Position numbers and translations under genes: made by a program. A stretch of 64,000 nucleotides of DNA from Mesostigma viride. Taxonomy: Eukaryota > Streptophyta > Mesostigmatophyceae > Mesostigmatales > Mesostigmataceae. The notes under the pieces are model-generated. The model saw nothing but the letters and a program-made list of their open reading frames with translations. It ran no database searches and was not told the DNA's origin. Each line of letters begins with the position of its first letter. The stretch's first letter is position 1. The stretch lies in assembly GCA_009746045.1 (NCBI GenBank), contig RPFO01000310.1, positions 4,718,817 through 4,782,816 on the forward strand. Direction: 5' to 3'. This document shows positions 9,230 to 53,756 of the stretch, piece by piece.

Positions 9230-11629
9230 GAGTCACAAGGGATAGCGGAGAGAGCGGTACAGGAGTTTAAGCTGCTTGCTACCCGACGTGGGGACCACAT
9301 GCCACACAGTGAATTCTCTAGTCGACGGCTCTTGTGGGCACTTGCCGTGTGTCGAAGTTTGAACAACCGTGTGCTGATGTCGACACAGGATGGGGTGTTG
9401 GTGACTGCCGAGGGTTTGCAGTTTGGCCAATATCAAGATGTGGTGGTGGATGTGTACAAAGACCACCTAGCATCCCGTTTTCAGCGCCTTGTCCAGTTGG
9501 ATATAGGCGACGTGGGGCTTATGAGCCCAGTGTGGGGCATGATGTTTGGCTGCATAAGGAAGGTACCCTGGGTAAGCGTGGCAGGTGGCTTGGTCCAGCC
9601 AAGGTCATTTCTTGTGATGCTGCTATGCGTAAATGCGTGGTGGACTATGAGGGCACTGAGGTCACTATGGCTTGCATGGAATAGGGTGAAGCCCTACATG
9701 CGTGATGTGGAGGCTTGGTCTAGAGTGTTGGAGTTGTACTCCGACCCTAGCAGGCTCTCTAGCACTGTGACTCCTCCTTCCTCTTCGGCTCCTGTATGTG
9801 GCAATGCAGGGGACAGTGGTACTAGCGCGCCTAGTGGGGAAGCTGAGTTGGAGTTGCAGAGTGGGGACTATGATGATGATGTTGCTGTGGTAGCACACCA
9901 CTTACACACCCTAGGGGTAGAACAGGCAGAGAGCTTGCGCGACAGCTTGCCCGTAACCTCCCCCCTTGATCTGGCGTTGGTCGGAAGGATCCCTGCGTTG
10001 GTAGGGATAGTAGTCAGGGCAGTTCGTTCGTGTCTTGCTCAAGCGCCCAAGCCGTAAGGGCTTTCTCACCCTTGCTGTAGAAAGGTTGATGCGTAAACCT
10101 TCTATACAGACGCTTTGCAAAATCCCGTCAAGGCAGCGATGGTATCCGCATTTGGTACCCTGGGTGATCAGCATGGTATGAGGATGTTGGTAGTAGATAC
10201 GCATGCAGGCGAGAACCTCCATTGTCTCATCGATCCCTGCACTACAATCCTGTGAGACCCTCAGTGCACTGGGAGTGTGTGACTGATTTTGCTGGCTCAA
10301 CGAAGTTCCCTGTCCTTGGTGTCATTGATGTCAATAATGTGATGGGGGTGCTAGTTGAGTTTTGCGTGGTGGAAGGGTATAGTGGTCCACCAATCCTTGG
10401 TCAGAACTTCCTTGTACGGGAGGATGTCTGGGTAAACTCCACCTGCTTGCGGCGGGAGGGGCATGCTGATCTGCCTCTTGAGGACTATGCTGTCATGTCC
10501 GACTGCCAACTTGTTGCTGTCATAGGCAACATTCGGAACGTGAACTATGCCCGTGAGAGTGATGTGCCGTTGGTTTACAACTCAGTTGTTGCTTCCTAAA
10601 CGTCCTAGCTTGGCTAGTCTCGGCATTGCCGGACGTCATGATGTTGCTACCCAAAGCCCTATCTCTTACCATGATGCTGACGTGGAGTGTCAAACGGAGG
10701 AGGGGCTAGATGGGTGGACTAAGGCCATTATTGCGTCAGGTGAAAGGTGGCTTGCATACCGTGCTGTTGAACCGGTTGATGAAGTGCCCAGTGGTGCTCG
10801 CCTTTTGCGCCACAAGTGGACTTTGGAGCGTAAGTTGGTGCCTGACACAACAACTAGGGTGCCTTTTGTTCGCCCGGTGGTCCTAGAATTTTCAGGTACT
10901 AGTGATCTTCCGGACAATGCCATCTCAGCACCTGGGTTGATCAAGGCAAAAAAGTAATTGGCGCATGGTCCTGTCCTTCTACCTAGGCCAGCTCAACAAG
11001 GGACTTCCGTATGAGTCAGCCCTCATGGATTTCAGCAAAGCTTTTTTGAATGGTGATCCCAAGCTCGCTGAGAATGTGTGGGCTGGCACGACCCGCTTGC
11101 ATGTGCGCTGTCCTCCCTTGTGGCAGCCTATCATGGGCAAGAAGTTTCTCCGTCTCTTGAAGGGTGTTGACGGTACTGTGATGTCCAGGTCCTCGGATTT
11201 GGCGCCTTTGCCTCGAGCGTCTTTTGCTCGATGTGATGCACATGTACTATCATGACCTGGACCCCTCTCTGTTTGTTGGCTCATGGGAGGGGCAGCCAGT
11301 TTTTGTGTTCATTCATGTCGATGATGTGGACTGCATGGGCCCCACACCGTGGCTAGACTGGTCTTGTGCCACTGTTGCTCAGCACTTCCCGGTCGGCAAG
11401 GTCATTCGCCGCGTCTTGGACAAGTATGTCAAGTTCTGTGGCGTCGACACTATGCTCACCAAGGATGCCTCTGGCAGATATGTGATGACGCTGCGTGCAG
11501 CGGGGGACTATGTTCAGGAGCTCATCACTCAGATTTCATCCCTTACTAGTCAGTATATTCAGCCTGCTGAGTGTGGTTCTCTGCGGGGTAAGCTGAACTG
11601 GCTGGTCTCTACCGTTTCCCCTGACTTGG
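9230..11629 (+). pseudogene. Copia C Pol: integrase C-terminus, protease-like region and RT (decayed, interrupted)
   Basis: Reading starts inside the integrase core, with the glutamate motif SQGIAERAVQEFK (about 9232-9270) and then the basic C-terminal part GKRGRWLGPAKV (about 9570-9605). A protease-like segment follows (DFAGSTKFPVLG to EGYSGPPILGQNFL, about 10285-10410), then RT with DFSKAFLNGDP (about 11025) and the active box IHVDD (about 11312). Frame breaks near 9540, 10590, 10960 and 11220 show decay. The RT sequence stops after SPDL at 11629, where the 42-kb element begins, and continues at 53757. The 5' part (LTR, gag, integrase N-terminus) is not in the window. Confidence 0.85.
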
Positions 11630-11704
11630 GGGTGGTCCCACGCGGAATGGGGTAGATTTTTGCAAGAAAAAAACGCTAATTTCAATCGTCCGAAAACCGG
11701 ACAT
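11630..11704 (+). repeat. Left terminal inverted repeat of the 42-kb element
   Basis: The outer 24 bases match the right end exactly. After a short indel the block GCAAGAAAAAAACGCTA and the following TTTCAATCGTCCGA match again, with one mismatch. Subterminal DNA to about 11950 is rich in CCGAAATTTT-type sequence and has no gene. Confidence 0.88.
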
Positions 11705-12077
11705 TGCGCCGAAATTCTTGCCGAAAATTTGGCAGCCGAGCGAATTTTTCGCCCGACGGACTTTGCGCCGAAATTTTTTGTCTGCCGTGCTTCGAACTCA
11801 ACCGACTCCTGCTGTTGCGTGCACTTTGTCCGATGCCGGCAGGCCACGCACGAATTTTGCGACCGAAATATGACGACTAGACAAGTTTATCGACGACCTA
11901 CATCGATCTATTGCCACTTTTGAAGTCCTTGGCTTGCTAGCAGCTTTTGATTATCAATGCCGGGAACAAAATTGCCGAAATTTTTTATTGAATCAGTACA
12001 TATATGTGCACATGTCCGTAATTTTATCATTCTCAATTTTGACATTGTCGGAGTATTTGACAACTTAGGCATTGCGC

Positions 12078-12680
12078 CTAGAAAAAGGTGCCCCATCCGT
12101 CGATGTCAAAATCGCCGAAGGAGTACACTCCCTGGTACTGGTCTCCCCTGTAGTTGGGAGGCTCGCCTGTATACATTTTGGTGTTCCACTTGGCCCCGCC
12201 GTTCTCCGCAGCAGCCAGGAACTCCTGCTGGGCCTCGGCCCTCAGGCGCATCATTGATACATTGGGAGAGCCCGGAATTTCCGTGCTCTCCACCACCACT
12301 CTCGCCTGATTGTCAGGCACGCATTGGTAAGCAGGGTTCAAATCTGAATCGGGTGGCACCAGATCGATCATGCCATTGCCGAACGCAATGACACCTGCAC
12401 CCCACTGTGCAGAAGGTCCGAGCAACTCTACATCAATTCTGATGTTTGCAGCGTGCTCATTTTTGTCGACCATCACATAGGTATGCTGAGAACCGAAAAT
12501 ATTGCTCTGCTCCATTTGTGACAGTGTTAAATTTCGGCAAGCTTGGCTGCTTGCAATCGACAGGAAATTGGTGACCCCGACAGCCAGACGCGCAAGGGTT
12601 ATAACTGCAGGTAGAACCCAAAATTTGTCGATAAGGAGTAATGGAAGGGCACGACCACCAGTCACTAGTATTCGCTTCAC
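12078..12680 (-). CDS. Unrecognised protein, possible cargo gene next to the left TIR
   Basis: Open frame of about 200 codons on the minus strand ending ...DIDGWGTFF. A hydrophobic stretch lies near the N-terminus (LPLLLIDKFWVLPAVITLARLAVGV). The part from MEQSNIFGSQHTYV onward (about 147 residues) reads like a folded soluble domain, so the true start may be that methionine and the upstream part may be an intron or 5' region. No family was recognised. It is the only gene-like frame between the left end and copia B and points toward the TIR. Composition is unlike the copia genes around it. Confidence 0.45.
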   Translation of the reverse strand: MKRILVTGGRALPLLLIDKFWVLPAVITLARLAVGVTNFLSIASSQACRNLTLSQMEQSNIFGSQHTYVMVDKNEHAANIRIDVELLGPSAQWGAGVIAFGNGMIDLVPPDSDLNPAYQCVPDNQARVVVESTEIPGSPNVSMMRLRAEAQQEFLAAAENGGAKWNTKMYTGEPPNYRGDQYQGVYSFGDFDIDGWGTFF

Positions 12681-12835
12681 CGGACACCTTTTTCAGCTTC
12701 CGGATAAAATTCAGCAAGAGCAGCGGCGATTAGATACTAAATATTGCGTTATTGGTTCGTACCGTACCCAGACAAAAATTGTACTAGTGACGCAATTGTA
12801 CTAGGCGGAATGACAACTGCGCCCGGCAAATAAGT

Positions 12836-13050
12836 ATTTATTGCTCCAACCCCACACCTAACTTGTTCCGGAGCTGTTCGAAGCGAAGAGCAATGGAAGG
12901 GATCGGACCCGAGCCAGATTTGAGTGCGAAACATGATGGCTGGCCTACCTCACTCCGAACATTAAGGTGGACCCGGGTTCGAATCCTGTCAGTGCTATTC
13001 GCTTCGAACAGTTCCGGAACGATTTTTTTTGTGGGGGTGGAGCAATAAAT
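12836..13050. mobile_element. MITE-like 215-bp element with tRNA-like core
   Basis: Ends are ATTTATTGCTCC and its complement. Inner arms GTTCCGGAGCTGTTCGAAGC (12865 on) and their inverted copy (about 12990-13015) extend the inverted repeat to about 60 bp. The loop carries GGTTCGAATCC (12976-12986), a tRNA B box. Same design as 8975-9229: short TIR element with tRNA-like core. Confidence 0.6.
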
Positions 13051-13338
13051 TCTCGACATGCAGAAACAAATGTCGAATAGATTGTGCAAAAAAATATCGA
13101 AATCCTTATCATTATTTAAATATACAGCATAAAATTATGTTGCAGTAAAAAATAACTGTTAATTGAAGGCCGCAAAAAATTATCAACTACCCTTAAACTT
13201 GACCACAGAAAGATCTCGAAAAATATATACAATATATGCGGCCACCTTTTTACACCCTACTGAAGCCCCACTCTAAAGATATAATACGAGCCGAAACTAG
13301 GGCGTCGTCTACCCGCAGCGAGACCCCAATTTCTTGTT
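13051..13338. other. 3' region of the transposase gene with one CTGCAG-type palindrome relative
   Basis: AT-rich DNA without a gene. A degenerate palindrome copy (13308-13328, on the minus strand GGGTCTCGCTGCGGGTAGACG) lies just past the predicted transposase stop codon at about 13339. Confidence 0.5.
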
Positions 13339-13353
13339 TAAGTCGGTGCCGGC
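13339..13353 (-). CDS. Last codons and stop of the transposase gene, beyond copia B
   Basis: With copia B and one CCGGC copy set aside, the frame of the 23160-23895 exon continues for Ala-Pro-Thr and then TAA. This explains where the gene ends and shows copia B hit the last few codons. Confidence 0.55.
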
Positions 13354-13836
13354 AGTTAGTCTCCATGCTTTGCTGGAGACTAAGTCTCAAAGGCATTGTG
13401 AATACAACGTATGAATAAGCCTTGTAAACCTACGTTGGTATGTGAATATAAATACCACGTGGGCTATGCAGATAGGAATGCTAGTTGAGTCGCATACGTT
13501 TCCCTAGATAGGTACTTTGGGTACTGAGGTACGTGACAGATGTCAGTACCCAGTATACGTAGTGTCCTGTCATTGGACGGTACTAGAGTATCCTAGATAG
13601 GGACCGTACGGCAGCGTGCATTGATCTGTGATCGCACGATGCAGTGACTAGACGGCGACCTGTCATCGTGTGGCCTCGGGCCAACGGTCTGCACCCAACG
13701 GTCACTGGCGGCGCAGCCGGTGAGAGGAACGTTGATAAAGGGTAAACCTATTTTCTAATGAACCAAGCAATTCATTGCTCACAGCATACAGTGTTCTCAA
13801 GCAATATATCACGTCGTTCATTTCTCATTCCTAACT
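13354..13836 (+). repeat. Copia B 5' LTR
   Basis: 483 bp with termini AGTTAG...CTAACT instead of the usual TG...CA. Nearly identical to the 3' LTR. A diverged solo copy lies inverted at 54076-54559. Confidence 0.93.
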
Positions 13837-14400
13837 TGAATTTTATAAACGCTCTTCAGCAACATCAAACTCAACAACGGTTCAAACCGGCACTGGAAAA
13901 AACAAAAAAAAGAAAAGAAAAGAGAAAAAGAAACTATATCTTGGGGACGACGATGATGATCAGCGTCGTCCGCCAGACAACAGGGCACCGGCTGATGTCG
14001 GTGCGCCTGCATGCAATAACAACAAAACAAAAAGAAGACAAAGAAAAAGAAAACAAAAGAACAACCATGACAATACCAGCCAGGTGGAGGGTCCGGCTGC
14101 CGCGAGGCAGTCCGAACAACCCCCCTCCCCTGTGCGCCAGCCGGTGGCGGAGCCGGTTCCCCTACGGGGCACCGACCAACCCTCTTCCCCGGCGGCTGCG
14201 ACAGCAGCACCCACTGCTGGAGCAGCCATGGCGGCGGCAATGCGGCAGGAAAACAACCCCCCAGGAGGCACCGGCCCCGCGCCGGCCCCTGGGGCTTCCA
14301 GCGTAAGCAAGTCCGTTGCTTTCTTTCCTCATGCATGCTCTGATATAATGCTCAAGAGCGGTGGCTATCTTTTCAACATATCATAACCAAACAGAAAGCT
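13837..14400 (+). pseudogene. Copia B 5' internal region, possible Gag N-terminal remnant
   Basis: A frame rich in Lys, then Asp (GDDDDDQRRPPDNRAPADVG), then Ala/Pro/Gly runs from about 13900 to a stop at 14386. Composition suggests a disordered protein, but no Gag signature is visible. It is not continuous with the zinc-knuckle region 1 kb downstream; stops and a tandem repeat lie between. Function unknown. Confidence 0.35.
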
Positions 14401-14874
14401 ATCGCTGCAGCATGAGGAGCATAGAAACGCTCCAGCTGTTATGTGATAAAAGCACTCCTGGCCTATCCCCATCGCCGGCGGTGGGCGGCCTGGGCTGGAC
14501 GGCATATGCAAACGAGACAAGTATCTCCGTCCACCCCAACGTGACTTATCTGAATGAATGTCATGTCTTTTGAACGCAGATCTCCCCATTTTATTTGGGA
14601 TGAGTGTAAGGGTATTGTTGCTTTCTTGGCAGCACAGCCTCTACCCTCTAGGGAGACTGTTGATCCTCTCTATGTCAGGGCTGAGGGCCCTTAATCAAAC
14701 CCACTGCTGTCAACTCCCTAAACATGGAGCTTGCCCAGCCGCCGCACATAATCAATAACGCATGCAGTAGTGGCAGAAGCCATTACCAAACGCATGTACT
14801 TGCGGGTAAAGACATGGCTGGTGCTAACGCTCAAGCAGCACCGGGAGGCAATAACAAGAAACACTAACAGAAAA

Positions 14875-15235
14875 CAAACAAACAAACAAAACTGTTACCA
14901 AACCATGGTTGGTGTTGAGGCAGCACAGATGCTGTCCTCTCATTACAAGCAAACAAACGAAACTGTTACCAAACCATGGTTGGTGTTGAGGCAGCACAGA
15001 TGCTGTCCTCTCACTGCAAGCAAACAAACGAAACTGTTACCAAACCATGGTTGGTGTTGAGGCAGCACAGATGCTGTCCTCTCACTGCAAACAAACAAAC
15101 GAAACTGTTACCAAACCATGGTTGGTGTTGAGGCAGCACAGATGCTGTCCTCTCATTACAAGCAAACAAACGAAAATGCTACCAAACCATGGTGGGTTTT
15201 GAGGCAGCAAAGATACTGTCCTCTCAATCAATACA
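14875..15235 (+). repeat. 71-bp tandem repeat, about five copies, inside copia B
   Basis: Units recur at about 14888, 14960, 15031, 15102 and 15173, each holding ACCAAACCATGGTTGGTG and GAGGCAGCACAGATGCTGTC. The last copy is diverged. The array lies where the main part of Gag should be, so Gag may have been replaced or lost here. Confidence 0.85.
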
Positions 15236-15263
15236 ATGAACAAACAAGAAAAGCTGCGATTAA

Positions 15264-15337
15264 TTAATTAACAATAACAATACCAACAACAGGCCCTCAC
15301 AGGGCAATAACAACAACAACAACCGGCCCCAACAGGG

Positions 15338-15368
<31 letters not shown>

Positions 15369-17420
15369 AGGCAACCTGGCAACCCTGGAAGGGTCAGGTG
15401 CCTGAGGTGCTTCCAGACGGGGCACAGCCGCAACCAGTGCAACCACAACCCTACACTGGTCAACAATGTGGATCTCTGCCCAGGCTGCCACTACACGAGG
15501 CACAACCTGGCCAGCTCCAGGCAGCCGTTGCAACAGGCCTCGCTACCCAAACAATGTGAGTTCTCTCACCTTGCTTACTCTGAGGATGATGATCTCATTA
15601 CCATTGGGGATGGCAGCCAGGGCATAATTGATTTTGAGGCAGCAACCTTACTGTCCTCCCAACACCCTGTACTGGAACCTTACATAAAAGCACTAACCCC
15701 TACTGTTGACAACTCCATAGATATCAAGGAGCTTGCTCATCAGCTGCACCTAGCCATGGGTCATGAAACAGTGGCTGAGGAACTGGCCAGACGGCTGGGG
15801 GGTAGTAGCATGGGAAAACAACTCAGGAATGCAGTAAAACTGGCTAGACAACACTGTCAAGAATGTCAGTTCAATAGCCCCAAACCTCAAAAATGGCATA
15901 CTGCAACTCCTTCCACCACTAGAGGCATGATAGTGGGGGATGTGATGCACATCAACAAAGATGTCCAACCCTACCTGATCCTAAAAGATTCATGGTCCAG
16001 GTTCACAGTAATGGAACCCCTACCTGGCATGTCTGCAGGGCAGCTACGTGTTGCACTCATGATTGCTTTACCCAGATTCTACCCAGTTGACAGAATTTTG
16101 CTTGATCAACAATTTTCTTGTCTGACTGACCTGGAAGGGTGTGAAGCAATAGAGATTGCTGGGCTGGAAGATCATGAGGGTCAGGGGGTCATTGAAAGAA
16201 CCATCAGATCTGTCAAAACCCTACTAGCCAAAAATCCTTCCAAGGATGCTACTTCAGGGGTCTATTGTGACAGGGCACTCTGGTGTCATGAAATGTGCAC
16301 AACCCTAAACATGAGACCTGTCTTGCATGCCAAGTGGGGTGAAGTAATCCCAGCAGGCCTGCAGGCAGGTGTATATCCCCCAGAGGTGATAGCACTGTAC
16401 AACACTGCACGTGCACAAACCTCAGCAAAACTGGCAGAAAAAGATAAAACCCATCCCAGGCCAGTATTCCAAAAAGGTGATCAAGTTCTCTATTACAAGG
16501 AAAACAGCTTTGGTAAGGTTGGAACTTGGCTAGGTCCAGTTACCATCCGTGGATTTACCAAAAACAGCAAGACCGTGGAGGTCAAGCACAATATCAATGG
16601 GAAGCGTCACAGGGTGAGCTGTCATAGAATTAAGAAGTATTATTCTCCCATGGCAGACGTGCCTGGGGAAGAGTCTTTAAGCATGGACTCACTACTTCTA
16701 TCTGGCAACTCCAGCATGCCCAGCAGTAGCCCTGAGCCACCAATTACTGCTGTTGACAGCACCACAGCACCCTCTGTGAACCCTTCCACCCTCAGTGAAG
16801 CCAGGCCCACTTCACAACCTGGGGATTGCTTAACCAGGCACGAGGTAGCTGGGTTGGAAGCATTAGCTCAGCCCCAAGGCACCAAATTGTCTGCCAACCC
16901 TCCCGCTCTGAGGTCAAGATTGGCAGTCGCCTTGCAAGCATTACACAGGTCACATAAGCAACAAGCTGCTGTGGCCGAAGGGTTGGCAAAAGTCTCAGCT
17001 GTGTGCACTAGTCAGGACCCCTGGACCCTGGCAATAGACACTCAGGCACAGGTCAGTGTGATCAGTGCACAAGCCATCCCTGGTCTTGAGATTGCACCTT
17101 CATTTTGGGCACGGGTGCAGGATTTCTCAGGCCAAAGCTCACTGGATGTAGTGGGACAGGTGATGCTCCCTATACTTGGTATTCAGACACCCTTCCAGGT
17201 GGTGGAGGGGTACTCTGGTAACACCTTGTTGGGGGAACCTTTTGTATCCTATCCTGGGGTGCTTATCTCAGCTAATGAGCTCAGTGTCACAGGGGTGGGT
17301 GCAGTTCCTCTGGACCACTTTAAAATCCCTCTCTCCAGTATTGTCCCTGGTATGGATGCTGTCATCAAGGCAGTCAACACTCAGTATGCACCAGGGGAGA
17401 TCCCTGATTGGACAAGTTAG
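15264..17420 (+). pseudogene. Copia B Gag zinc knuckle fused to integrase and protease-like domain
   Basis: One open frame. It begins with Asn/Gln-rich sequence, then a CCHC knuckle C-x2-C-x4-H-x4-C (about 15394-15440) and a second Cys/His cluster (CPGCHYTRH). Integrase follows with the HHCC region ending CQEC (about 15860), catalytic D in GDVMHI (about 15940), D in LLDQQFS (about 16100) and E in GVIERTIRSVK (about 16190). A retropepsin-like segment comes next, with DTQAQVSVIS (Asp at 17037-17039) and VVEGYSGNTLLGEPF. Protease thus lies after integrase. The frame ends at 17420 just where RT should continue, pointing to a frame break. Confidence 0.82.
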
Positions 17421-18355
17421 TGCACAGCCAGTTCCTCCATCCCTCAGCCTTTGGGCTGGGTAAGTGGGACATAGCCATGCACTCACCCCACCAAATCTCC
17501 CACGTCATACAAGAATGCAAAACACAAAAAGGGTTTACCAAGTGGCTGATGGCCATTGTCCACCAAGCCAGGCAGGAATGGGTCCTGCCCAACCCCAAAA
17601 ACCCTCAATACAAACCTCCTGTCACCCCTTCATGGGACGTGCCAGAGGGAGCCAAAAAGCTCAGATTAAAATTTGTTCTCAAACAAAAACCACAAAAAGT
17701 GGGCTCCCCAATCTTCCATGCCAGACCATGTGTCACAGAATTAAAGGGGACATCCACACTGCCAAAAGGGGAAACCTACACACCTGGGCTGCAACAAACC
17801 TCACTCAGGATCATGCTCTCCCTATTCCTCCACAACCTCAATGCAGGCCAAGACTATGTCTGCAAAGCCACTGATATTAAAAGGGCCTTCCTCAGGGGGG
17901 ACCCAGAAAAGGCTGAATCTGTGTGGAAAGGGAAGGTGTACGTGGTAGACACCCCAGCTGTGTGGAAACCTTACATTGATGAGCCCCACCTTATCATCAA
18001 CATTGGGGTGGAAGGGCTTGTCAGTGCCCCCAAAATTTTCAGAGACTCAGCAGAGGAAGTATTCAAAAAGCTCAAGGCCACGTATGATGACCTGGACCCA
18101 TGCTTTTTTGTTGTACCCACCCCCTCTGGACTGCTGCTCTTTGTGTGGCATGGAGATGACCAACTCATTTGTGGGCCTAGAGCTGAGGTGGAAACATTTA
18201 TTCAGCAGGTCCAGGAATCATATGAGATTGGCAAACAGGTGGAATTGAGCACAACCCCCATCCAGTTCTGTGGCATCATGTTGCAGCTGCATAGGCAGCC
18301 AGATCAGTGGGTCTGCTCTCTCTCCCTCCTGCAGAATATATCCAAGATTGTCTAG
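17408..18355 (+). pseudogene. Copia B reverse transcriptase (frame-broken)
   Basis: RVT_2-type RT of Ty1/copia elements in a different frame from the integrase part. Motifs: LRLKFVLKQKP, TDIKRAFLRGDPE (first catalytic Asp, about 17870) and FVWHGDDQLI (active box, about 18150), where the usual YVDD is replaced by HGDD. The frame stops at 18355 and the chain continues one frame over, a second single-base break. Confidence 0.85.
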
Positions 18356-19079
18356 ATCTGCTGCAGACAACTACCTCCCCTTACACATGTGTGCCACTGT
18401 TCAGGGCAAACTGGGGTGGTGGTCAGCCATCTGTGGGGCTCCCTTAGCTGTCATCAGCAGGGTCACCCATGATGTTCTAGTCAAGATAAAATGCAGTCAC
18501 ATCAGGAAGTTGGTCAATGACTGTCCCCCCCTCATCCTCCATGGCCTGAATCTGATGGAAGACATCCACATCCAATGTGTCATGGACAGCTCCATGGAGA
18601 GCAGAACAATCAATCAGATGGGGGCACGGGAATCAGGGCTGTTTTTTCTCACCAACAGGTCAGATTACATGTCCCTCACTTCCTGGTACAGCAGGCTACA
18701 CCGCAGAAAACCTGGCAGCAGCAACTCAGCTGAATGTCGTGCTGTGGTGTCTGCTGCATTGCATGCTCGTTCCCTGCAGCACATGCTCACCTGGCTACAA
18801 ACCCAGGCAGGCAGCACATGCAATGTTATCTCACATCTCTACACTGACAGCTTTTCTGTGATCAGTTTTCTAACCAAGAAATCTGTTTCTGCTGCTGTCC
18901 ACACTGACTTGGATTGGGTGATCCTCAAACAGGAGGCCACCTATTTTTCCAGCTGGACTCATGTGGATGATGAGGACAACCCAGCAGACGCTCTAACGAA
19001 GCTGCGGGATGCTGCTGGCCAACAGTACCAGCTCCTCTTTCAGAACATGAACCCCTATGATATCAGAGTCAGTGTTTGA
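18340..19079 (+). pseudogene. Copia B RT C-terminus and RNase H
   Basis: Continues RT (CATVQGKLGWWSAI) and then RNase H with CVMDSSMESR (Asp), SAECRAVVSA (Glu), YTDSFSVI (Asp) and the terminal NPADALTKLRD motif typical of copia RNase H. Stop at 19077-19079. The frame opens only by skipping the break near 18345. Confidence 0.85.
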
Positions 19080-19453: not shown

Positions 19454-19492
19454 AGTTAGTCTCCATGCTTTGCTGCACTAGGAACTCGGGGG

Positions 19493-23895: not shown

Positions 23896-23966
23896 CTGCC
23901 ATCAAATAGTTAGGACAAAAAGAATACCGTTCAAATTAGCAAAATTGACCAAAAACCAATAAAACA

Positions 23967-24900: not shown

Positions 24901-24949
24901 CACCTGCCAGTTTCCAGCTAATCACTCAACCTTGGATGCAAAGTTCTTT

Positions 24950-43425: not shown

Positions 43426-44390
43426 ATTTATTTATTCATGCCATCACCTTCCCACATTTAATGATTAATGCCAGCACCCCCCAACATTCATTTATTCATG
43501 CCATCACACCCCCACATTCTTTTATTCATGGCAGCACCCCCCACATTTATTTATTCATGCCATCACCCCCCACATTTAATGATTGATGCCAGCACCCCCC
43601 AACATTCATTTATTCATGCCATCACACCCCCACATTCTTTTATTCATGGCAGCACCCCCCCACATTTATTTATTCATGCCATCACCCCCCACATTTAATG
43701 ATTAATGCCAGCACCCCCCAACATTCATTTATTCATGCCATCACACCCCCACATTCTTTTATTCATGGCAGCACCCCCCACATTTATTTATTCATGCCAT
43801 CACCCCCCCACATTTAATTATTAATGCCAGCACCCCCCAACATTCATTTATTCATGCCATCACACCCCCACATTCTTTTATTCATGGCAGCACCCCCCCA
43901 CATTTATTTATTCATGCCATCACCCCCCACATTTAATTATTAATGCCAGCACCCCCCAACATTCATTTATTCATGCCATCACACCCCCACATTCTTTTAT
44001 TCATGGCAGCACCCCCCACATTTATTTATTCATGCCATCACCCCCCACATTTAATTATTAATGCCAGCACCCCCCAACATTCATTTATTCATGCCATCAC
44101 ACCCCCACATTCTTTTATTCATGGCAGCACCCCCCCACATTTATTTATTCATGCCATCACCCCCCCACATTTAATTATTAATGCCAGCACCCCCCAACAT
44201 TCATTTATTCATGCCATCACACCCCCACATTCTTTTATTCATGGCAGCACCCCCCCACATTTATTTATTCATGCCATCACCCCCCCACATTTAATTATTA
44301 ATGCCAGCACCCCCCCACATGCATTTATACATAGCATCCCCCCCCACATGTATTTATACGTAGCTTCCCCCCCCACATGTATTTATACGT
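43426..44390 (-). repeat. Diverged inverted minisatellite array with about 122-bp higher-order unit
   Basis: Units such as CATTTATTTATTCATGCC followed by ATCACCCCCCA are the reverse-complement form of the 42467-43425 unit, diverged in the middle. Four unit types alternate (ATTTATTTATTC, ATTTAATTATTAATG, ATTCATTTATTC, ATTCTTTTATTC) giving a higher-order period of about 122 bp, repeated seven to eight times. The last two units (44320-44390) return to the CACATGTATTTATACGTA form closest to the direct array. Confidence 0.9.
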
Positions 44391-44398: not shown

Positions 44399-44862
44399 GG
44401 GTCTCGCTGCGGGTAGACCCTCGGAATTTTGTTTTTGTATTGACGTAAGGGTCTCGCTGCAGCGAGACCCCAAGGAATGTCAATTTTTCATGTTTTCATG
44501 ATGGGGGGTCTTTCTTTTCTCACCCTTAAAATGATTTGTTTTTGTATCGGTGTTAGGGTCTCGCTGCAGCGAGACCCCTACGAATGTCGACTTTTAATGT
44601 TTGCAAGATGGGAGGGGGCTTTCTTCGCTCACCCTAAAAATGATTTGTTTTTGTTTGACGTTAGGGTCTCGCTGCAGCGAGACCCCAAGGAATGTATACT
44701 TTTTTATGTTTGCATGATGGGAGGTTGCTTGTTTTCGCTCACCCTAAAAATGATTTGTTTTTGCTTGAAGTGAGGGTCTCGCTGCAGCGAGACGCCAAAG
44801 TTTTGCATTAAACTAAATGTCCCTTTTAGAATCCACGAAAGGGTCTAGCTGCAGCGAGACCC
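44399..44862. repeat. Six CTGCAG palindromes, four in about 108-bp tandem units
   Basis: Palindromes at 44399-44420, 44449-44470, 44556-44577, 44664-44685, 44774-44795 and 44841-44862. Those from 44449 to 44774 are spaced 107-110 bp by a repeated sequence (CAAGGAATGTC ... TGATTTGTTTTTGT). They precede the first recognised exon of the large plus-strand gene, so they may lie in its 5' intron or leader. Confidence 0.9.
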
Positions 44863-44939: not shown

Positions 44940-46138
44940 ATGTCGTCCTCCTATTCCGATTCTGTCAAGGCCACTCCCGTTTCACCCAAGATGACGTCGA
45001 ACACCTCGCCGGACCGAACGGCAACGGAGGCGTTTCCTCCGTTGCAGTTCGGTCCCGTAAATGCTCTGCGAGGTCCCCCCCACCGAGTCCCCCTCGCCCT
45101 CCAAGTCCAACTTGCCCCCCAGCGAGTTGGACAGAATTATACCCCCCAACCTCTCTCGCTGCTGCGTCTCGCGCTCCGTCCCGCTCTCCGCCCCGTAAGT
45201 CTCCATCGCCGCCCCCCAAGTCGGCCGGAGCTACTGCGTCCCGCTCGCCGCCCCGCAAGTCCCCCAAGTCCCCCGCAACTGCGACCCGTTCGCCGAACCG
45301 CAAGTCCCCCTCTCCGCCCAAAGTTCCCCCCGCTACCGCGTCCCGCTCTCCTTCTCGCAAGTCCCCCTCGCCGTCAACCAAGAACCCCGCAACTGCGTCC
45401 CGCTCGCCGTCCCGCTCTCCTTCCCCCAAGTCCCGCTCGCCGCCACCCAAGTCCCCCGCTTCTGCGTCCCGCTCGCCGTCCCCCAAGCATTCCAGTTCTA
45501 AGCGTAAGCCTGCGGCCGAGTGGGTAGAGGAAGACGACCGCACCAAAGAGCTCAGGAAGCTGAGGAAGTCTATCAGTGAGCTTGTTGAGGAGGACGAGCG
45601 CGATCAGACTAACGGGAGGCCTGAAGACCCGGAATCGCCGGTTCGGGAGTCGCGTCAGAAGCGGTTGTCCGATTTGTTAGCAATGGCCGCAAGCTTTGCT
45701 GACGAATACGCGGCTCTCGACAAGAAGGACAAGGAGAAGGAGAAGGCGGAGAGGGAGGCCATCGAGAAGGCGGAGAGGGAGAGGGTGGAGAGGGAGGAGA
45801 AGGAGAGGCTGGAGAAGGCGGAGAGGGAGGAGGAGGAGAGGGAGTACAAGGAGAAAAAGGCTGCCCAGGAGAAGGAGCACAGGATCCTGGTGGCGAAGCA
45901 GAAGGAGGAGGCGAAGAAGAAGACGGAGGCGGCAGCGAAGGAATTCTTGCGGAGGAGGCCGCTCTTTTTTTGCAGATGCGACAGGAGAGGATGAAGGCGG
46001 AAGAGGCCGCGAGGAAGATGGAGGAGGAGGCTGCGAGGAAGGAGGAGGAGGCTGCGAAGGCAGTTGAGGGGGAGAAGGACGAGAACGGAGAACCCCTTCT
46101 TCACGAAGGATTTTCAGTCGATTATCAGGTATGTTTAT
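44940..46138 (+). CDS. Large charged protein gene of the 42-kb element, Ser-Pro/KE-rich exon
   Basis: The acceptor TTCTGCAG ends at 44939. The frame that fits is not the first ATG but the one reading CQGHSRFTQDDVEHLAG, then a long Ser-Arg-Ser-Pro / Lys-Ser-Pro repeat region (45180-45490), then SELVEEDERDQTN and a long Glu/Lys/Arg coiled-coil-like segment (45700-46080). One single-base break lies near 45955. The exon ends YQ/GTATGT at 46138. The 5' start is not resolved. SR/SP-type repeats resemble RNA-binding or chromatin proteins, but that is only composition. Lies in the right half of the 42-kb element and reads toward its right TIR. Confidence 0.6.
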
Positions 46139-46318
46139 TAATGTGAGACGTACATTTTTCAGATGGCTTGAACGGCGTGTGTGTATCGTAGAAAGGGTGG
46201 GATTTTATGTCATACATTGATCGTAAGGGTCTAGCTGCGGAGAGACGTTGACCTAGGAGTTAAGGTTGTTGACGACGACGACGATGTGTGGCCTTTTTTT
46301 TACTCTTGTTGTCTGCAG

Positions 46319-47367
46319 CCCTCCACGGTGGCCATTCTGAAACAGTACCTGGCTCAGACTGAGTCTGAGGCTGGGGTGAGTCGTAAAGCCGAAAAGGGCT
46401 TGAGAGGCTTGATCCGCTTTCTTTCGGCCGAGATAGCGTTTGCAGAGAAGTCCGGTGTCGTCGTGGACCGTCCGGAGTCGGCACACATAATTTGGAAGAA
46501 CGACCGCCTGGGCCGTCTTGCATTGTTCGAAGCCACACAGCGAGCCATTCATGGGAAGAGGGTCGTTGGTGACGACATGTATGAGGTTTTGAAGATCGCG
46601 CAGTCGTGCATCCTTAATCTGAAGGAGGATGTCGGACGTTACTTTCCCCGTCGTGCTTTAATATGGTCGACGCTCTTTGATGAGGTTGAAAAGTTCGAGG
46701 TCCACATTGGCTTCACATGCATCGAGGCTTCCTATATGGAAACCTTGAAAACCACTGCGTTGCATCAGCTCTTTAAACTCATGACTGGAGATATGAGAGC
46801 GGATTCGAGGGCTTCACTGTCGGAAGATGAAGTGTTTGATATTGTCAGGCAAGGATTTGTTGACACGTCCAACAGTGACTTATCGTAATTGTGCCGGGAA
46901 GAATGAATGACGTAGGAGGATTGGAGGAGCGCGCACATGAAGTGATCGCGCATTTGGACATGGCAAGAGACCACTTACTGCAATCTTTTGTTAAGTGGCG
47001 GACTGACTTTCTTGTCAGCCCGGACGCCAGCCTTTCGCGGGAAGCGGTCGCTTTCTTTTTGGATTGGGCTGGACAGGTGATCCAAAGTTTCCGGCACCGG
47101 GAGGACTTCCATGTTATTCAGACATATAAGCCATACCGGGAAGTCGTCCAGGAATGGTTGGATCAAATCTCGTTGGTTGATTGTCTCCAGAGTATCCGAA
47201 CCAAGACAGACACGGAGTGGTCTGATTTAGAGGCGGGAGGCCATTGGCAGTCCCTCGAGTTGTTCTTCGAGGCGGAATTGAGGCGGCAACTGGAAAAGGA
47301 GAGAGCCCATCAAGTGCCGATATGGCCTTTGGGGAAGATTTTGAGGAGGTGGAAGTTCTACGTTTCG
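46319..47367 (+). CDS. Large charged protein gene, helical exon 2
   Basis: Acceptor GTCTGCAG (46318), donor TCG/GTACGT (47367). Encodes a mostly helical, soluble-looking region: PSTVAILKQYLAQTESEAG, RLALFEATQRAIHGKRVVGDD, EVEKFEVHIGFTC, then LEERAHEVIAHLDMARDHLL and a C-terminal EAELRRQLEKERAHQ. A single-base break near 46880 splits it. The upstream intron (46139-46318) holds a palindrome at 46227-46248. No domain recognised. Confidence 0.6.
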
Positions 47368-47474
47368 GTACGTTAACTTGCCGATATCGTTTATCGATTT
47401 GGGTTGTTTCCATTCCCTGAATAGGGCTCTATATGCTGACCAACCTTCATGGTTTGTCCTGTCATATCATGCAG

Positions 47475-47990
47475 GGGGGCTCCATGCCAGGGGACGTATC
47501 GGAGGATTTACCTAATTTGTCAGACTTGGTTGATAAGGTGGGTGCTTGTCCGTCGAGTTTCCACGAGCATCTTACATGGGGTCTAGCTGCAGGTAGACCC
47601 TCACCCTTTTATTGAGACTGACATGTTCGGCTAATTTCAACGGTGCCCCCAACCAATCTGTTGTCTTTTTTCAGGGGGCGGCTGCGGCGATGGCTGTTGA
47701 CAGTGCTGGTATTTGGTCTGGACTCGAGATGGAAATGGTAAGCATTAAACGATATCCGGATGTCTGCATTTCGCCTGAAGTTTTAGTGAGCGCATTATGC
47801 GAAATATACAAATGTCGACTAATTTTGATTTCCAATGAGCTGTCGTATTCGGTGTTGACAGGCGGGGGGTTTGGCCTCAGCAGGCGCTGCCGGAGAGGAA
47901 GAAAACGCTGGAGGAGATGAGGATGGGGGGGATGAAAACGCTGGAGGAGATGAGGATGGGGGAGACGCTGAGGGAGAAGTGGCTGTGCAG
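47475..47990 (+). CDS. Large charged protein gene, three small exons
   Basis: Exons 47475-47537 (SMPGDVSEDLPNLSDLVDK), 47675-47737 (AMAVDSAGIWSGLEMEM) and 47862-47990 (Gly/Glu/Asp repeats ENAGGDEDGGD). Each has AG before and GTGGGT, GTAAGC or GTACGT after. The first intron (47538-47674) carries a palindrome at 47579-47600. The intron after 47990 holds a degenerate one near 48034-48058. Acidic repeats are directly duplicated. Confidence 0.55.
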
Positions 47991-48116
47991 GTACGTTCAT
48001 CCGCCGCGAGTTCGTGTGATTTTTTTCGTGCTGAGGGGTATCTCCGCAGAGAGACGATGGTGCAACAATCGAACTGAGGTCAAGTCCCTTCTTGTTCGTT
48101 TTTTTTTGTCATGCAG

Positions 48117-48655
48117 GCGGGGGCTGTCGCTGGGGGTACTGCGGGGGGGAAGGCGGCGAAGCCCATTGACAGTATGAAAGGGAAAAGCTGGATTCCCGCA
48201 AGAAGGTTGCGAAGGATCATATTATTGCTGTTGGCCTGATCATGCTTAAGTCTCCGCCCGATGGCGTCGATTCGGAGGGACCTGCGGGGTCCGAGTTTCG
48301 CAAGTACCTGACACGACTTGAGGCGGAAGTCGATGCCGATTTCGATACGGAGGTGTTGGGTGACGCTACCTTTAAGAGTGAATTGGCATATGAATTCGCA
48401 AATCTGGTGAAGTCGAAAGCCACCAAGAATTTCAAGTGGCAGCCTAAGGAGTACTCAGAGGCAAAGGTTGACAAGATCGAGAAATTCATGAAGGCTGATT
48501 TTCGTCGTCGGGCCGCTGAGGGAAAAAGGGCGCTGAATGCGGTGGCAAAGGCCAACAGTAAGAAGAACGCGGAGGCGAAGGCGGCGGAGAAGGAGGCGAA
48601 GAAGGCGGAGAAGGAGAAGGCTAAGGAGGCCAAGAAGCAGCAGAAAACTGGACAG
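48117..48655 (+). CDS. Large charged protein gene, exon with Lys/Ala-rich tail
   Basis: Acceptor CATGCAG (48116), donor ACAG/GTACG (48655). Begins AGAVAGGTAGGKAAKPIDS, shifts frame near 48185, then reads VGLIMLKSPPDGVDSEGP, FRKYLTRLEAEVDADFDTEV and a Lys/Ala/Glu coiled-coil-like tail (AKANSKKNAEAKAAEKEAKK). The following intron holds a degenerate palindrome at 48678-48700. Confidence 0.55.
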
Positions 48656-48844
48656 GTACGATTGTTGTGAAAATTTAGACCTCTCGCTGCGGGTAGACGC
48701 TGACCGGCTGCGGGACTTGGTGTTTAGTGTCAGTAAGGTACTATTCCAACAGAACTTTGTTCGTCCCTGAACAGGATGTCGTGGTCGGCCTAAAGATTAC
48801 TGACTTGAGCAAATCCTGCGGTCCTTTTCGATTTTTTACTTCAG

Positions 48845-50012
48845 GATGACGGGGGGGACGAAGACGCCACGGTGGAGAAGAAGTTACCTGGTCATGACGC
48901 CGTGTTCGCGCTGGTGAAGGATATGCTCAAGTACTGCTCGAGTAGGCGGATGGCGGACGTCGATGACCTGCCAAACTGGCCCGAGTTCTCCCCCTTTCTT
49001 GAGCTGCTCCGGTCACTCAACAAGCTTTTTAAGGAGGGGGTGCTCACGAGCAGTGGGAACCCGGACACCGACCCTATCATTGAAAGCTGGAAGCCTTCGA
49101 AAAAGGTCGACTCGAACAAGGAGGTCAGGGACCAGAACATCCGGAAGGCCAATACTCTCAGGGAAACGCGTTGGATTCGGCCGGCCGATTTTAAGCAGAC
49201 CGGATGTTTCAGTATGCGGATCCAGACGGTCAACGCGCTTATTTTGCCAGAGGCTTTGAGGCAGCGGCGTTTAAACCTTGAAACCATTAAGGAGAACGGC
49301 CGCATTCTCCTCAATGCGCGGGACAACGCCTTGCACTTCAAGGTTGTTGTCCCGGTCTGGCAGTTCCCTTTCCAGGCGCTTGCCGAATCTCAACCTGACC
49401 TGTTCGACAAGCAAATCTTGTGCATGCCGGATTTCGTCAAGTGGCTGAAGCATTCACCACGGCGCCAAGATTGACGCGGAGGATGTGGGGTCCAGGTACT
49501 TCCGGCCCCTTTCGGATACTGAAGTCGACGTGTGGCTTAACACGGAGTCCACCACCTCTTTCCTCGCGAGAGGACTTGAGTGGCGTACCTACGCCAGGGT
49601 GGACGAGGTGGAAGCAGTTTTGCCTCAGGAGATCGAGGGCAGTCGGCAAGTTTTCAACCTGCTGTGCAATACTGCGATGAAGTCCTACGATCCGAAATTT
49701 TTTGAGGAACGGGTACCGGTACCGTATCTGGTTCTCCGGTACGCGGTGGTGGATGGGAACCACTACTTTAAGGGGTTAAAGTCGTTTCTCAGGGGGCCGG
49801 ATGGCGGGTGGGGAGAGGTTCGGGCAATGATGTGCGAGGGTGGGGCGGAGTCCAATTTCGCAAATACTCCTAAGGAGGCGGAGCACGCCTTCCAGGACCT
49901 GTTGCGGAAATTCCGTGGTGGTTACATGGGTACGAACGTCATTCTTCTCAAGGGTGGCGACCTGCTCCCGTCGTGGAGTGAGCTGCGAAATCTACCTAAG
50001 GCAAAAGAAGAT
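48845..50012 (+). CDS. Large charged protein gene, long conserved-looking exon
   Basis: Acceptor CTTCAG (48844), donor GAT/GTAAGC (50012). About 390 residues of globular character: GHDAVFALVKDMLKYCSSRR, FLELLRSLNKLFKEGVL, LRETRWIRPADFKQTGCF, KVVVPVWQFPFQALAESQPD, then (after a single-base break near 49462) GSRYFRPLSDTEVDVWLN and VPYLVLRYAVVDGNHYFKGL. Varied composition makes this the best region for a homology search. No family recognised. Confidence 0.6.
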
Positions 50013-50267
50013 GTAAGCTATCTATTTTGGCAGGGTCTAGCTGCGGGTAGACCCTCGGAATTTTCGTGGTTGTTTTTTGTGTGCGCTTCAAGTTTTTTGC
50101 GAGGGTCTCGCTGCAGCTAGACCCTCTCCTTTTTTTTGTTGGAATTTTCGTTGCGTATTGTCGGCCGTTTCTTTTTCGAATTTTGTTAGGGTCTATCCGC
50201 AGCTATACCCCTCGCCTTTTATGACTGAGTTTTGTCGTTGCTCGCTCGATGTTAATTGATGTCGCAG
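50013..50267 (+). other. Intron with three CTGCAG-type palindromes
   Basis: Palindromes at 50033-50054, 50103-50124 and 50189-50210, the first two followed by CT-rich tracts. The donor GTAAGC and acceptor GTCGCAG bound the 255-bp intron. Confidence 0.75.
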
Positions 50268-51450
50268 GCGGTGCTGACCGGCAAGCTGGAGAAGCTGTTC
50301 GACATCGCCAAGGGGGCGAATTCGGAGGACTTAGCCGTGGCGGATCGTACGCTGGGCCAGGCGTTGCTTGACGTGTGGAACTACAACAAGCTATATCTAT
50401 ACGGCAAAGTCACGCGTGGGAAGGGCCACTATATTGCGGATGGCCACTACACCAATCTGCTCACGTACATCCTCCCGGCTATGCGGCAAGCGGGGGGAAG
50501 GGAAGGGAATGTGGAGCCGGCAGCGGTGGATGTACACGAGGAGGAAGCAGAAGGAAAGAAAAAGCCGGCCCACAGCATTGCTTCAGTGCATTCCGCTTAC
50601 AGTCGCACGCTGGCCAACACGTTTCTCCGTCTGACACAGGAGCAGACTGATGATCCTGCCTCAACGAAACCCGCGCCTGAGGAGGTGATGATGCAAAGGT
50701 GCAAATTCGCCAATGCAGAGGGGGAGAAGAAAGGCCAGAAGGTCTCTTGGACTTCTTTCAGGAACTTGGCCAGCCTTCCTATGATGGACGCCGTGATCGA
50801 TTGCATCATGAGCTGCCAGGTTGGACCGGAAAAGCTCACCAAGTTGGTGGAGATCGCCAAGGATGTGCTGGAGTGCCTGCGGCTGACCATTTGCGCCAGA
50901 TTCAAGGAGGATGAGACGCTGGAAGCGCAATGCAAGGACGCAAATGGCAAGGAGTTTGTGGCGTCTCATATTTTCGAACTCGTCTTCAATCTCCATCCTC
51001 TCGCTCGGCCGGTCGGCAGGAAGGAGATTGTGGCCAGATACCGGGAATTTTGGGATGTGGCCGTCATCATAACGAGGAACATCGCCTACCTTCTTAAAGC
51101 CAAAAAACACGCCGCACATCTGAGGATTCCGAGAAAGGATATCAGTAATGGCAAGATCGACTTTCAGGAGATTCTGCTAAAAGAGAGCGAGGACAAGACG
51201 GTGGGTTTGGCACTTTTGGCTCCGGAAGCGTTCAGGAAGTACGCTCCAAAAGTTGGATTACTCGAAGGGGGGTGAAGGAGGCGGCGATGAAGGGGCCGGT
51301 GAAGGGGCTGGAGAAGGGGAAGGGGAAGGGGAAGGGACGGAGAAGAAGGAGAGGAGGCGAAGGAGGAGGAGGAGTGGGACGTGAAGTATGAGTGGCAGAG
51401 TGTGGACTGGGGCCGTCGCCGGGTCTGGTTTTGCTGTCAGGACTAGACGG
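50268..51450 (+). CDS. Large charged protein gene, helical exon
   Basis: Reads AVLTGKLEKLFDIAKGANSE, TLGQALLDVWNYNKLYLYGK, then an acidic insert, SIASVHSAYSRTLANTFLRL, LPMMDAVIDCIMSCQVGPEK, ASHIFELVFNLHPLARPVG and FWDVAVIITRNIAYLLKAKK. A frame shift at 51268 (in GGGGGG) leads into Gly/Glu repeats and EEEEWDVKYEWQSVDWGRR. About 330 residues before the shift look globular and helical. No family recognised. Confidence 0.6.
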
Positions 51451-52800
51451 TGATGATGATGACAAGTCGCTCGTCAAGCAGGTGGCAGGCGAGGTTGCCT
51501 CAGCTTCAGCCCGCCCCTTTCCCTTGGGCAGGTCCCTTCCGTGCCTGAGCCTGCTGAACTTGGCGAACATTTGGGGTGATAAGTGGAGTAACTTTCAGAG
51601 AGGGTGGTGGGCGTTCGGTCCTTGCCCGAAGCTTCGACATTCCCCAACCGGGCGGGATGTACGATCATGTGCTGAAGGCTTGCGCCCACGAGTTTTTCTC
51701 CAGGTTCGAACCGATGGTGATCGTGTTTGGTACCGAGACGGAGATTAAGGGGTTTCAAGAGATAGTGGAAAGGATCGGGAAAGGGAGTGAATTGTGGGAG
51801 CGGCTTGAACAGGGGGAAGGTGATGGGGGGCCTAGGCTCGGAAGGGCGAAGAAGCGAAAAGCTTCCCACGAAGCTGGGGGATTGTCCGCCGTGGTGGAGA
51901 GGGATGACCAACAGTTGTTGGAGGGAGGGGATGGAGGGGATGGAGGTCCGGCAGGAGGGTCTAACCGCGGAGAGACCCCCGTCGAGGTCAGAACGCAGCA
52001 GGCCGAACAGATGACGGGGCCTGAAGGTGATTCGGATCCGCCTGCGGCGAAGAAGCCCGCTTCTCAAGTGACTCGACGGGCAGTCGTGTCACTTGTTGAG
52101 GATGATGGAGGTGGGCCTTCCAAGCCTGCCGCGTCGCAGACCGTTTTTCAGGTTCCGAAGAAGCAGCTTCGGGTTCCCCCGCCGACTCTGCCCACCCCGG
52201 CGCCTCTGCCCACCCCGGCGCCTCTGCCCAGTTCTCAGGTACCGAAGAAGCAGCTTCGGGTTCCCCCGCCGACTCTGGCCATTTCTCAGGTACCGAAGAA
52301 GCAGCTTCGTAAGCCAGTTGTGGCAGTGGCTGATTCGGACGACGATGCTGAGGAGGAGGAGGAGGAGGACGACGACGATGCTGAGGAGGAGGAGGGGGAG
52401 GAGGAGGAGGAGGAGGAGGAGGAGCAGCACGTTGCTACCAAGAAATCCGCCAAGGGTGGGAAGGCTGCGGAGCACGTTGCTTCCAAGAAATCGGCCAAGG
52501 TGGGGAAGCCTCCCAAGCCTGCCCTGCCTCAGAAACGGCGTCGAAAAGCAGTTGTGCTTTCAGATTCGGACGATGAGGAGGCGAAGGAGGAGGAGGATGG
52601 CGGCGGAGAGGAGGAGGACGGGGGAAAGGGGCGCGTTCAGCTTCCAAGAAGCTACCCAAGACCGCGAAGACTGCCAAGGTTGCCGAGCCCGCCAAACCCG
52701 CCCCGGCGCCTGCCCCCCACCCCCAGACGGGGTCTACCTGCGAGCAGAGGTCGAAGGAAAAGGCCAAAAAGGGTAAGAAAAAATCTGCGAGTGAATTCTG
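51451..52800 (+). CDS. Large charged protein gene, acidic/basic low-complexity exon
   Basis: Frame from about 51576: SFDIPQPGGMYDHVLKACAHEFF, EIKGFQEIVERIGKGSELWERL, then disordered sequence with three copies of QVPKKQLR, acidic runs (DDDAEEEEEEDDDD) and repeats HVATKKSAKGGK / HVASKKSAKVGK, ending KSASEFW at GTATGT (52800). A palindrome relative (51957-51978, centre CCGCGG) is translated in frame as GGSNRGETP, so one copy sits in coding sequence. Junction with the previous exon (51420-51570) is not resolved. Confidence 0.55.
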
Positions 52801-52895
52801 GTATGTAGAGTGTTTTGATTTTTCACGGTTGGCAGTCCGATTTCTACTAACTCGATTTTAGTCATGCGTTGATGGCATGATCGGTTTGCTCGCAG

Positions 52896-53458
52896 GTAAT
52901 GAGGATGTGGAGCAGTTACTTCGCTTGGCTAATGTGGCGGTGGGCTTCGGACCAGCGGCTGTACATGCTGACACTTCCGGACGGGAGGAGCCTAAGGGGG
53001 CGGAAGACAGTCAGGCGGGCGATGAGGATGATGACAAGCCCACGTTGGAAATGAGACTTATGGACGGGGAAATGGGGTTCGGAGCACCAGAGGCCTTTTG
53101 GTGTGATGGGTGGACTTTAGCCATTATGCAAGCAGGGAACAAGGATACGGCTACGCCAATGTATGCCAAGCTAGAAGACGTCATGCTTTATGGGCAGGTG
53201 TCTGGATACGACACCAAGTGGAGGGACGTCGCATTTAAGTTTTTCGCTGAGGGGGAGAAGGGAGGGAAGTTGAAGAACAAGTTGTGGTGGATGCCGCTGG
53301 ACTACGCGATGAAGGTGGTAAAGCTGACGGATGGCAAGAGCTGGAAGGATGTGGAAGTCTGGGCGCCTGCAAAGGAGATCGATAAGAAGAGGAGGAACTC
53401 GAAAACGGAACAGCAGATCGCGGAAGCGAAATTACGGAAGAGGCCCTCGAAAGTGTGA
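52896..53458 (+). CDS. Large charged protein gene, last exon
   Basis: The acceptor GCTCGCAG ends at 52895. Reads EDVEQLLRLANVAVGFGPA, an acidic stretch, EMGFGAPEAFWCDGWTLAIM, YGQVSGYDTKWRDVAFKFFA, LWWMPLDYAMKVVKLTDGKS and a Lys/Arg-rich end, with stop at 53456-53458. About 190 residues, the second half globular. The stop lies about 220 bp from the right TIR. Confidence 0.65.
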
Positions 53459-53679
53459 GGGAAAGTTAGCACTTGGACATGCGCTGGCAATGCTCGTCCT
53501 ATGGTTAATACAAAGGTTAGGATGATGTCGAGTCTCTCCACGTAAAATTTACATGAATTACTAACTTTCAAGCCTCTCGATGTGGAATGTACGCTCAAAT
53601 TGACATGAATTAAGCATTATGACACCAAATTAGCTCGAAAATACGCGATCGGACGCCAAATTCGCGCGAAAAAAAGATA

Positions 53680-53752
53680 TCGGACGATTGAAACTAGCGT
53701 TTTTTTCTTGCAAAATGCGCCAAAAATGACCCCATTCCGCGTGGGACCACCC
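53680..53752 (-). repeat. Right terminal inverted repeat of the 42-kb element
   Basis: Inverted copy of 11630-11704, ending CGTGGGACCACCC at 53752 and followed by TTGG. It contains a 10-bp insertion (GGCGCATTTT region) relative to the left copy. The subterminal stretch 53459-53680 has no gene. Confidence 0.88.
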
Positions 53753-53756
53753 TTGG

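Follow-up and report, generated by a model that had tools for sequence, protein, structure and literature searches.

What separates the two parts of a copia polymerase gene that lie some 42 kb apart in the genome of the streptophyte Mesostigma viride? We addressed this question in a 64,000-nt stretch of contig RPFO01000310.1 (assembly GCA_009746045.1, positions 4,718,817 to 4,782,816), hereafter the window, which holds one copy of the element described here. The split gene belongs to an element that we call copia C. The intervening block, 11630-53752, is in our judgment (probability of about 0.85) a single terminal inverted repeat (TIR) DNA transposon of about 22.9 kb proper, which inserted at TTGG in the decaying polymerase gene and now spans 42 kb through two nested copia elements, copia A and copia B, and a hAT-like insert.

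Boundaries and target site

The block is 42,123 bp long and is flanked on both sides by TTGG. It starts with GGGTGGTCCCACGCGGAATGGGGT, and the exact reverse complement of these 24 bp forms its other end. Beyond them, the local alignment of the two ends contains two gaps (1 and 8 nt) and 3 mismatches, with 61 of the 73 columns identical, and blastn aligns the ends with 82% identity (E = 3e-14). The terminal motif GGGTGGTCCCACGCGG occurs only once in the window, at 11630, and its reverse complement likewise only once, ending at 53752. By arithmetic, the chance of finding 24-bp arms with a 4-bp target-site duplication (TSD) in 64 kb is about 3e-8. We also scanned the window, skipping its simple-repeat and minisatellite stretches, for paired inverted ends with a TSD. 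Two classes of pairs were seen in full, namely exact 12-bp ends whose TSD is 4 bp or longer and 10-bp ends whose TSD is 7 bp or longer; for 8-bp and 16-bp ends, what follows applies among the matches listed. The other TSD-like pairs were mostly palindromic, as by-products of long inverted repeats. Because TTGG is not self-complementary, it is no such by-product, and we therefore take it as a genuine TSD. The block is a TIR-bounded unit that inserted with a 4-bp stagger at TTGG.

The remains of the target gene were placed by comparison with the polymerase open reading frame (ORF) of copia A (37273-40899, 1208 residues). The matching pieces of copia C are 9188-9508, 10243-10488, 10586-10942, 10953-11174, 11191-11643, 53747-54079, and 54560-54853. 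The left junction piece (11191-11643) corresponds to residues 865-1010 of the copia A polymerase and extends 14 nt into the element, and the right junction piece (53747-54079) corresponds to residues 1003-1104 and begins within the element, 10 nt before the flank. When the flanks are joined with one TTGG, the frame is open and aligns at the join without a gap to copia A (SPDL joined to AVLARLPDDL, versus RPDLMVIARLPDDM). An earlier note on this DNA had proposed that a DNA element bounded by TIRs inserted precisely here and duplicated 4 bp, and the TTGG pair, the 24-bp ends and the flank alignment agree with this; the note's further claim, that deleting one unit (the element plus one TTGG) restores the copia frame, is borne out by the joined flanks. 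Copia C had already decayed, with pieces spread over several frames, and the joined frame ends in a stop codon 48 residues past the join. Its RNase H part is broken by a solo long terminal repeat (LTR) of the copia B family (54076-54559) with the 5-bp TSD GCACG. The locus is a case of nested insertion in which the empty site can be reconstructed to the base.

Assemblers can be misled by features that this window has, namely long stretches of simple repeats and a perfect inverted repeat (arms of 545 bp), and the block might accordingly be suspected to be an assembly artefact. A misjoin is not expected to yield, all at once, inverted ends that match over 24 bp, a 4-bp duplication that is not palindromic and an open frame across the joined flanks, and this combination rules out the artefact for practical purposes; we regard it as extremely improbable.

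Nested inserts and the size of the element

The features of the locus are collected in Table 1. Subtracting copia A, copia B and the hAT-like insert together with their duplications (19.3 kb) from the 42,123 bp leaves, by count, 22,855 bp of element proper, or 20,282 bp without the minisatellites. The description of the element as a 42-kb transposon thus applies to the span of the block, of which only about 22.9 kb is the element proper and the remainder is nested inserts, and the previous estimate of roughly 19 kb for the original element has to be raised.

Table 1. Coordinates of the element, its inserts and its target in the window
Feature	Position	Strand	Remarks
Copia C polymerase, left part	9188-11629	+	decayed
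Left TSD	11626-11629		TTGG
Left TIR	11630-11693	+	first 24 bp match right end exactly, imperfect beyond
Left arm of element	11694-13353		one palindrome (13306, with 4 mismatches) and a weak minus-strand coding signal at 12099-12476
Copia B, nested	13354-23159	+	TSD CCGGC; LTRs identical over 463 bp
Leftward gene, putative C-terminal exon	23158-23898	-	coding signal stops at copia B border; outside training set
hAT-like insert, 1,612 bp	28170-29781		within leftward gene; 12-bp TIR CAGAGTGCAATC, 8-bp TSD GTTTTCGG
Leftward gene, exon with DDE/D-like core	29737-30447	-	DWAENY ... SDNCAVQFK ... HGKGEVD
Leftward gene, putative exon	30604-30870	-	outside training set
Leftward gene, putative exon	30768-31424	-	cysteine/histidine-rich stretch
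Leftward gene, putative N-terminal exon	31445-31999	-	
Five palindrome copies	32166-32813		just upstream of leftward gene
29/30-bp minisatellite	33982-34634		left of copia A
Copia A, nested	34635-42466	+	TSD GGTGC; LTRs differ at 4/617; polymerase ORF 37273-40899 open
Minisatellites	42467-44386		29/30-bp, then 30-bp array with 119-bp higher-order unit
Six palindrome copies	44400-44861		three perfect; upstream of rightward gene
Rightward gene or genes, multi-exon (predicted)	45500-53443	+	at least 8 coding-like blocks
Right TIR	53680-53752	-	from blastn and local alignment of ends
Right TSD	53753-53756		TTGG
Copia C polymerase, right part	53757-54853	+	solo B-type LTR 54076-54559 inside

The insert at 28170-29781 has the 8-bp TSD and the short TIR of hAT elements; the one ORF of it that was scanned against Pfam (28588-29064, minus strand) gave no transposase match. 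The nested inserts, copia A and copia B among them, appear to have come after the last jump of the element. In the giant transposons of Ectocarpus, inserts of this kind are as a rule fixed across copies (PMC12477816), so that the present element may, by analogy, also have moved when already enlarged.

Copia B itself contains a 3.2-kb DNA element (19482-22690) with the ends GAACTCGGGGGTG and the TSD CTAG, which sits at the start of the 3' LTR and splits off its first bases. A repeat in the 3' region of copia B (20451-21512) is also found outside the element at 58705-59073, with 85-89% identity and partly inverted. The LTR termini are AGTTA...AACT in copia A and copia B and AGTTA...TACT in the solo LTR at 54076-54559, not TG...CA, and the TSDs are 5 bp long.

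Coding content

Coding blocks were located with a codon-usage scan, for which nine stretches from ORFs of the element itself served as the training set. The score is circular for most blocks other than the five outside the training set (23158-23898, 30604-30870, 45500-45970, 51657-52628, and 52901-53443). Pfam scans covered selected ORFs and pieces of the element. Two divergent gene sets, apparently multi-exon, were predicted in this way, and the element appears to carry a candidate transposase gene running leftward and one or more accessory genes running rightward.

In the leftward gene, the coding signal runs from 31999 to 29737, with a further exon at 23898-23158. The exon at 29737-30447 shows a D-(84)-D-(42)-D spacing that ends in HGKGEVD, and the series of motifs given in Table 1 is one that we take to be a DDE/D transposase pattern. 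The leftward gene probably encodes a transposase, judging from these motifs, and presumably one that acts on the ends described above. Its product would have bound the GGGTGGTCCCACGCGG (GGGTGG) ends, excised the element and integrated it elsewhere at a 4-bp target, and the movement was probably of the cut-and-paste type. The gene is now split by the hAT-like insert, and its last marked exon is bordered at the 3' end by copia B. The copy is probably disabled and would be mobile now only with a transposase supplied in trans.

Several observations weigh against the assignment of a transposase and the gene models. The candidate had no significant homology match in the Pfam scans, and neither its 251-residue ORF nor the 460-residue joined protein gave a Pfam hit on the DDE/D-like core. 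The only hit of the DDE/D-like core, to DUF7869, was obtained with three trimmed pieces and lies below the cut-off (E = 0.15-0.21); one of seven shuffled or reversed decoys scored better (E = 0.041, with an unrelated family), and the DUF7869 hit alone is no evidence. A single-sequence AlphaFold model of the exon has an order of secondary structures compatible with an RNase H fold, but it is a poor model, with a predicted local distance difference test (pLDDT) score of 37.6. The exon borders of both genes are predictions from the sequence, and a frameshift may account for the joint near 31424/31445. Nor is the coding scan fully specific, as it marked low-complexity stretches on the other strand at 45045-45498; acidic or low-complexity coding blocks are therefore weaker evidence than their scores. 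The second single-sequence AlphaFold model of this analysis had a pLDDT of 38.1. A literature search for DUF7869 found no paper, and the pattern of the transposase core had 26 matches in GTDB contigs, none of them a relative.

No piece of the rightward gene that was scanned matched a Pfam family at the curated cut-off. By eye, the string VVDGNHYFKG at about 49752 resembles ParB, but it drew no match from a ParB model, and a Pfam search of the element proteins for a ParB or methyltransferase domain gave no hit. The sole four-residue motif of methyltransferase type that was listed, SPPF at 48987, is out of the coding frame. Pfam, NCBIfam, and PDB searches of the element, copia and flanking ORFs gave weak RVT_2, zinc-knuckle and rve matches for the copia elements and sub-threshold matches elsewhere, and Rfam and tRNA searches gave nothing.

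The large size and the several genes between inverted ends would also suit an integrated virus, Polinton-like or other. However, the ORFs scanned gave no capsid or DNA-polymerase family in Pfam, five protein queries (four from the element and one from copia A) found no relatives in IMG/VR, and the genes look intron-rich; a viral origin is thus very unlikely. A 16-bp query from the element end had five matches in IMG/VR, none of which resembles the end past these 16 bp, and a copia B ORF had no match among phage records.

A palindrome family confined to the element

A 22-bp palindrome, GGGTCT[C/A]GCTGCAGC[G/T]AGACCC, recurs throughout the element. Mismatches were scored in its 20-bp core, and the background was taken from 200 shuffles of element-proper DNA. 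With up to four mismatches, the window contains 22 copies, every one of them within the element proper (20.3 kb): the left arm has one, and there are five at 23.9-28.0 kb, six at 30.5-32.8 kb, and ten at 44.4-50.2 kb. At this threshold the two nested copia elements, the hAT-like insert and the minisatellites have none, and neither does the remaining 21.9 kb of the window on either side of the block. With up to five mismatches, 25 of 26 copies lie in the element proper, the exception being in copia B. The shuffles gave means of 0.005 and 0.075 copies at the two thresholds. Some palindromes are tandem duplicates, in units of 107 and 79 bp, so the 22 copies do not represent 22 independent events.

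The copies with up to four mismatches are situated in spacers, in putative introns or upstream of both divergent genes; the copy at 46228 overlaps the very start of a marked coding block. Two of the three additional copies with five mismatches in the element (48037 and 51958) lie inside marked coding blocks. At the most variable pair, position 7, the arms are complementary in 9 of the 22 copies, compared with 10.6 expected. Because the arms vary independently at this position, half-sites for a protein fit better than an RNA hairpin, and a constrained hairpin was rejected for this lack of covariation.

The palindromes also bear on the unity of the element. The ends could belong to a smaller or non-autonomous element, into which the transposase-like and rightward genes came as separate nested elements to form a composite unit. 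Nesting is indeed heavy at this locus, inserts separate the segments of the element proper, and a 3.7-kb segment (24062-27711) in the last long gap of the leftward gene, flanked by a pair of similar repeats about 100 bp long, is unexplained; it may be a further insert, with no ends found for it among the TIR/TSD matches listed. On the other hand, one palindrome family marks every segment of the element and, with four mismatches allowed, is absent from the rest of the window. It is common to the left arm, the region of the leftward gene and the right arm, so that these segments form one element. Moreover, the complete classes of the TIR/TSD scan yielded no credible second pair around the transposase-like gene. 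The pairs enclosing its exons are the element's own ends, inverted copies of the B-type LTR, inverted copies of the repeat at 21.3 and 58.9 kb, and one T-rich 12-bp match from inside copia B. A composite unit is therefore quite unlikely, and we continue to treat the block as a single transposon.

What such palindromes might do is suggested by partition systems, in which ParB reads parS. By this analogy, the copies might form the element's own address system, read by an element-encoded dimeric DNA-binding protein that is possibly the product of the rightward gene, in which the string VVDGNHYFKG lies; we put this forward as a speculation that is, on the present sequence, rather unlikely. If it holds, the element could use the address system to recognise its own DNA, or to silence, protect or segregate it. 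As they are confined to the element, the palindromes provide a testable case for transposon self-recognition. Self-recognition has been proposed by the authors of the Ectocarpus study for ParB-methyltransferase accessory proteins (PMC12477816). The palindrome had no match in IMG/VR, and such palindromes were not met in the text consulted of the papers cited here, although no literature search aimed at them was made.

Superfamily and relation to known giant transposons

We lean towards a Sola-type assignment, which was made because of TSD length and motif pattern, without significant homology. Sola is characterised by a transposase of the DDD type together with a 4-bp TSD, and the TIRs of reported elements measure 11-1124 bp (PMC10741241). 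Here, the TSD is TTGG on both sides, and the TIR has 24 identical bp with similarity over 73 columns. Most Sola elements are 2-9 kb long and some exceed 15 kb (PMC10741241). The TSDs of amoebozoan Sola2 are AT-rich (PMC3627910), unlike TTGG, which speaks against Sola along with the missing homology.

Both points could be taken to favor a giant transposon of another superfamily (EnSpm/Chapaev, Academ, Ginger, or an undescribed one), given that the scanned pieces lack significant homology to any family and that TTGG is more GC-rich than the Sola2 sites. We consider this possible, if less probable than not. EnSpm/CACTA elements are expected to carry CACTA-type ends. The ends here are GGGTGG, on which EnSpm was rejected, and there was no EnSpm match in the ORFs scanned. 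Ginger and Polinton were set aside for want of an rve integrase match among the element-proper ORFs scanned. KDZ elements have TSDs of 7-8 bp (PMC12730594) versus 4 bp here, and piggyBac and Kolobok use TTAA (PMC9587614) in place of TTGG; all three were rejected for these TSDs.

With a Sola-type element in mind, the closest published description is found in Ectocarpus, where KDZ, EnSpm and Sola-1 giants reach 30.3 kb (PMC12477816). Sola1-1_Ec32 resembles the present element, by description only, in size (21.5 versus 22.9 kb) and in having an accessory gene opposite in strand to the transposase gene (PMC12477816). Its accessory protein has ParB-like and DNA methyltransferase domains (PMC12477816), whereas neither gave a Pfam match here. 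Nested inserts, likewise present here, and pseudogenized transposase genes are general to the Ectocarpus giant families (PMC12477816). The KDZ giants, among them an active 31.7-kb element of Chlamydomonas (cited in PMC12477816), are also giant DNA transposons but differ in TSD length. In Chondrus, giant EnSpm/CACTA elements of 16-20 kb carry 4-5 ORFs (PMC6431247); they are likewise enlarged and have several genes, and the present element differs in its GGGTGG ends and in giving no Pfam transposase match. Teratorn, a 180-kb piggyBac-like transposon fused to a herpesvirus (PMC5601938, PMC6431247), is likewise a giant DNA transposon, whereas no viral family matched in the ORFs scanned here. The view that the element is very large for a cut-and-paste transposon holds as far as it is large, but there is precedent in algae (PMC12477816). 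Because giant algal DNA transposons such as the 21.5-kb Sola1-1_Ec32 and the 31.7-kb KDZ element have been published, size alone is not new. What the element contributes is a further giant TIR transposon whose two gene sets are divergent and apparently made up of several exons, and the palindromes are the unusual feature of this otherwise known type.

Other features of the window

Outside the element, 55243-56668 holds a second LTR of copia A type and, after it, a gag-like ORF that shares about 45% identity with the one in copia A. The perfect inverted repeat at 59089-60178 consists of two 545-bp arms with zero spacer and a tandem period of 442 bp, and is either a real palindrome or an assembly artefact. 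On the left side, 73-bp inverted ends (97% identity) at 6667-8814 enclose a 423-bp direct repeat (6892-7314 and 8313-8735, 99.5%). Long (GTG)n tracts occupy 5550-6410 (about 288 units) and 1-70, and near-identical direct repeats occur at the left edge of the window (254-442 with 5361-5549, and 71-228 with 443-600).

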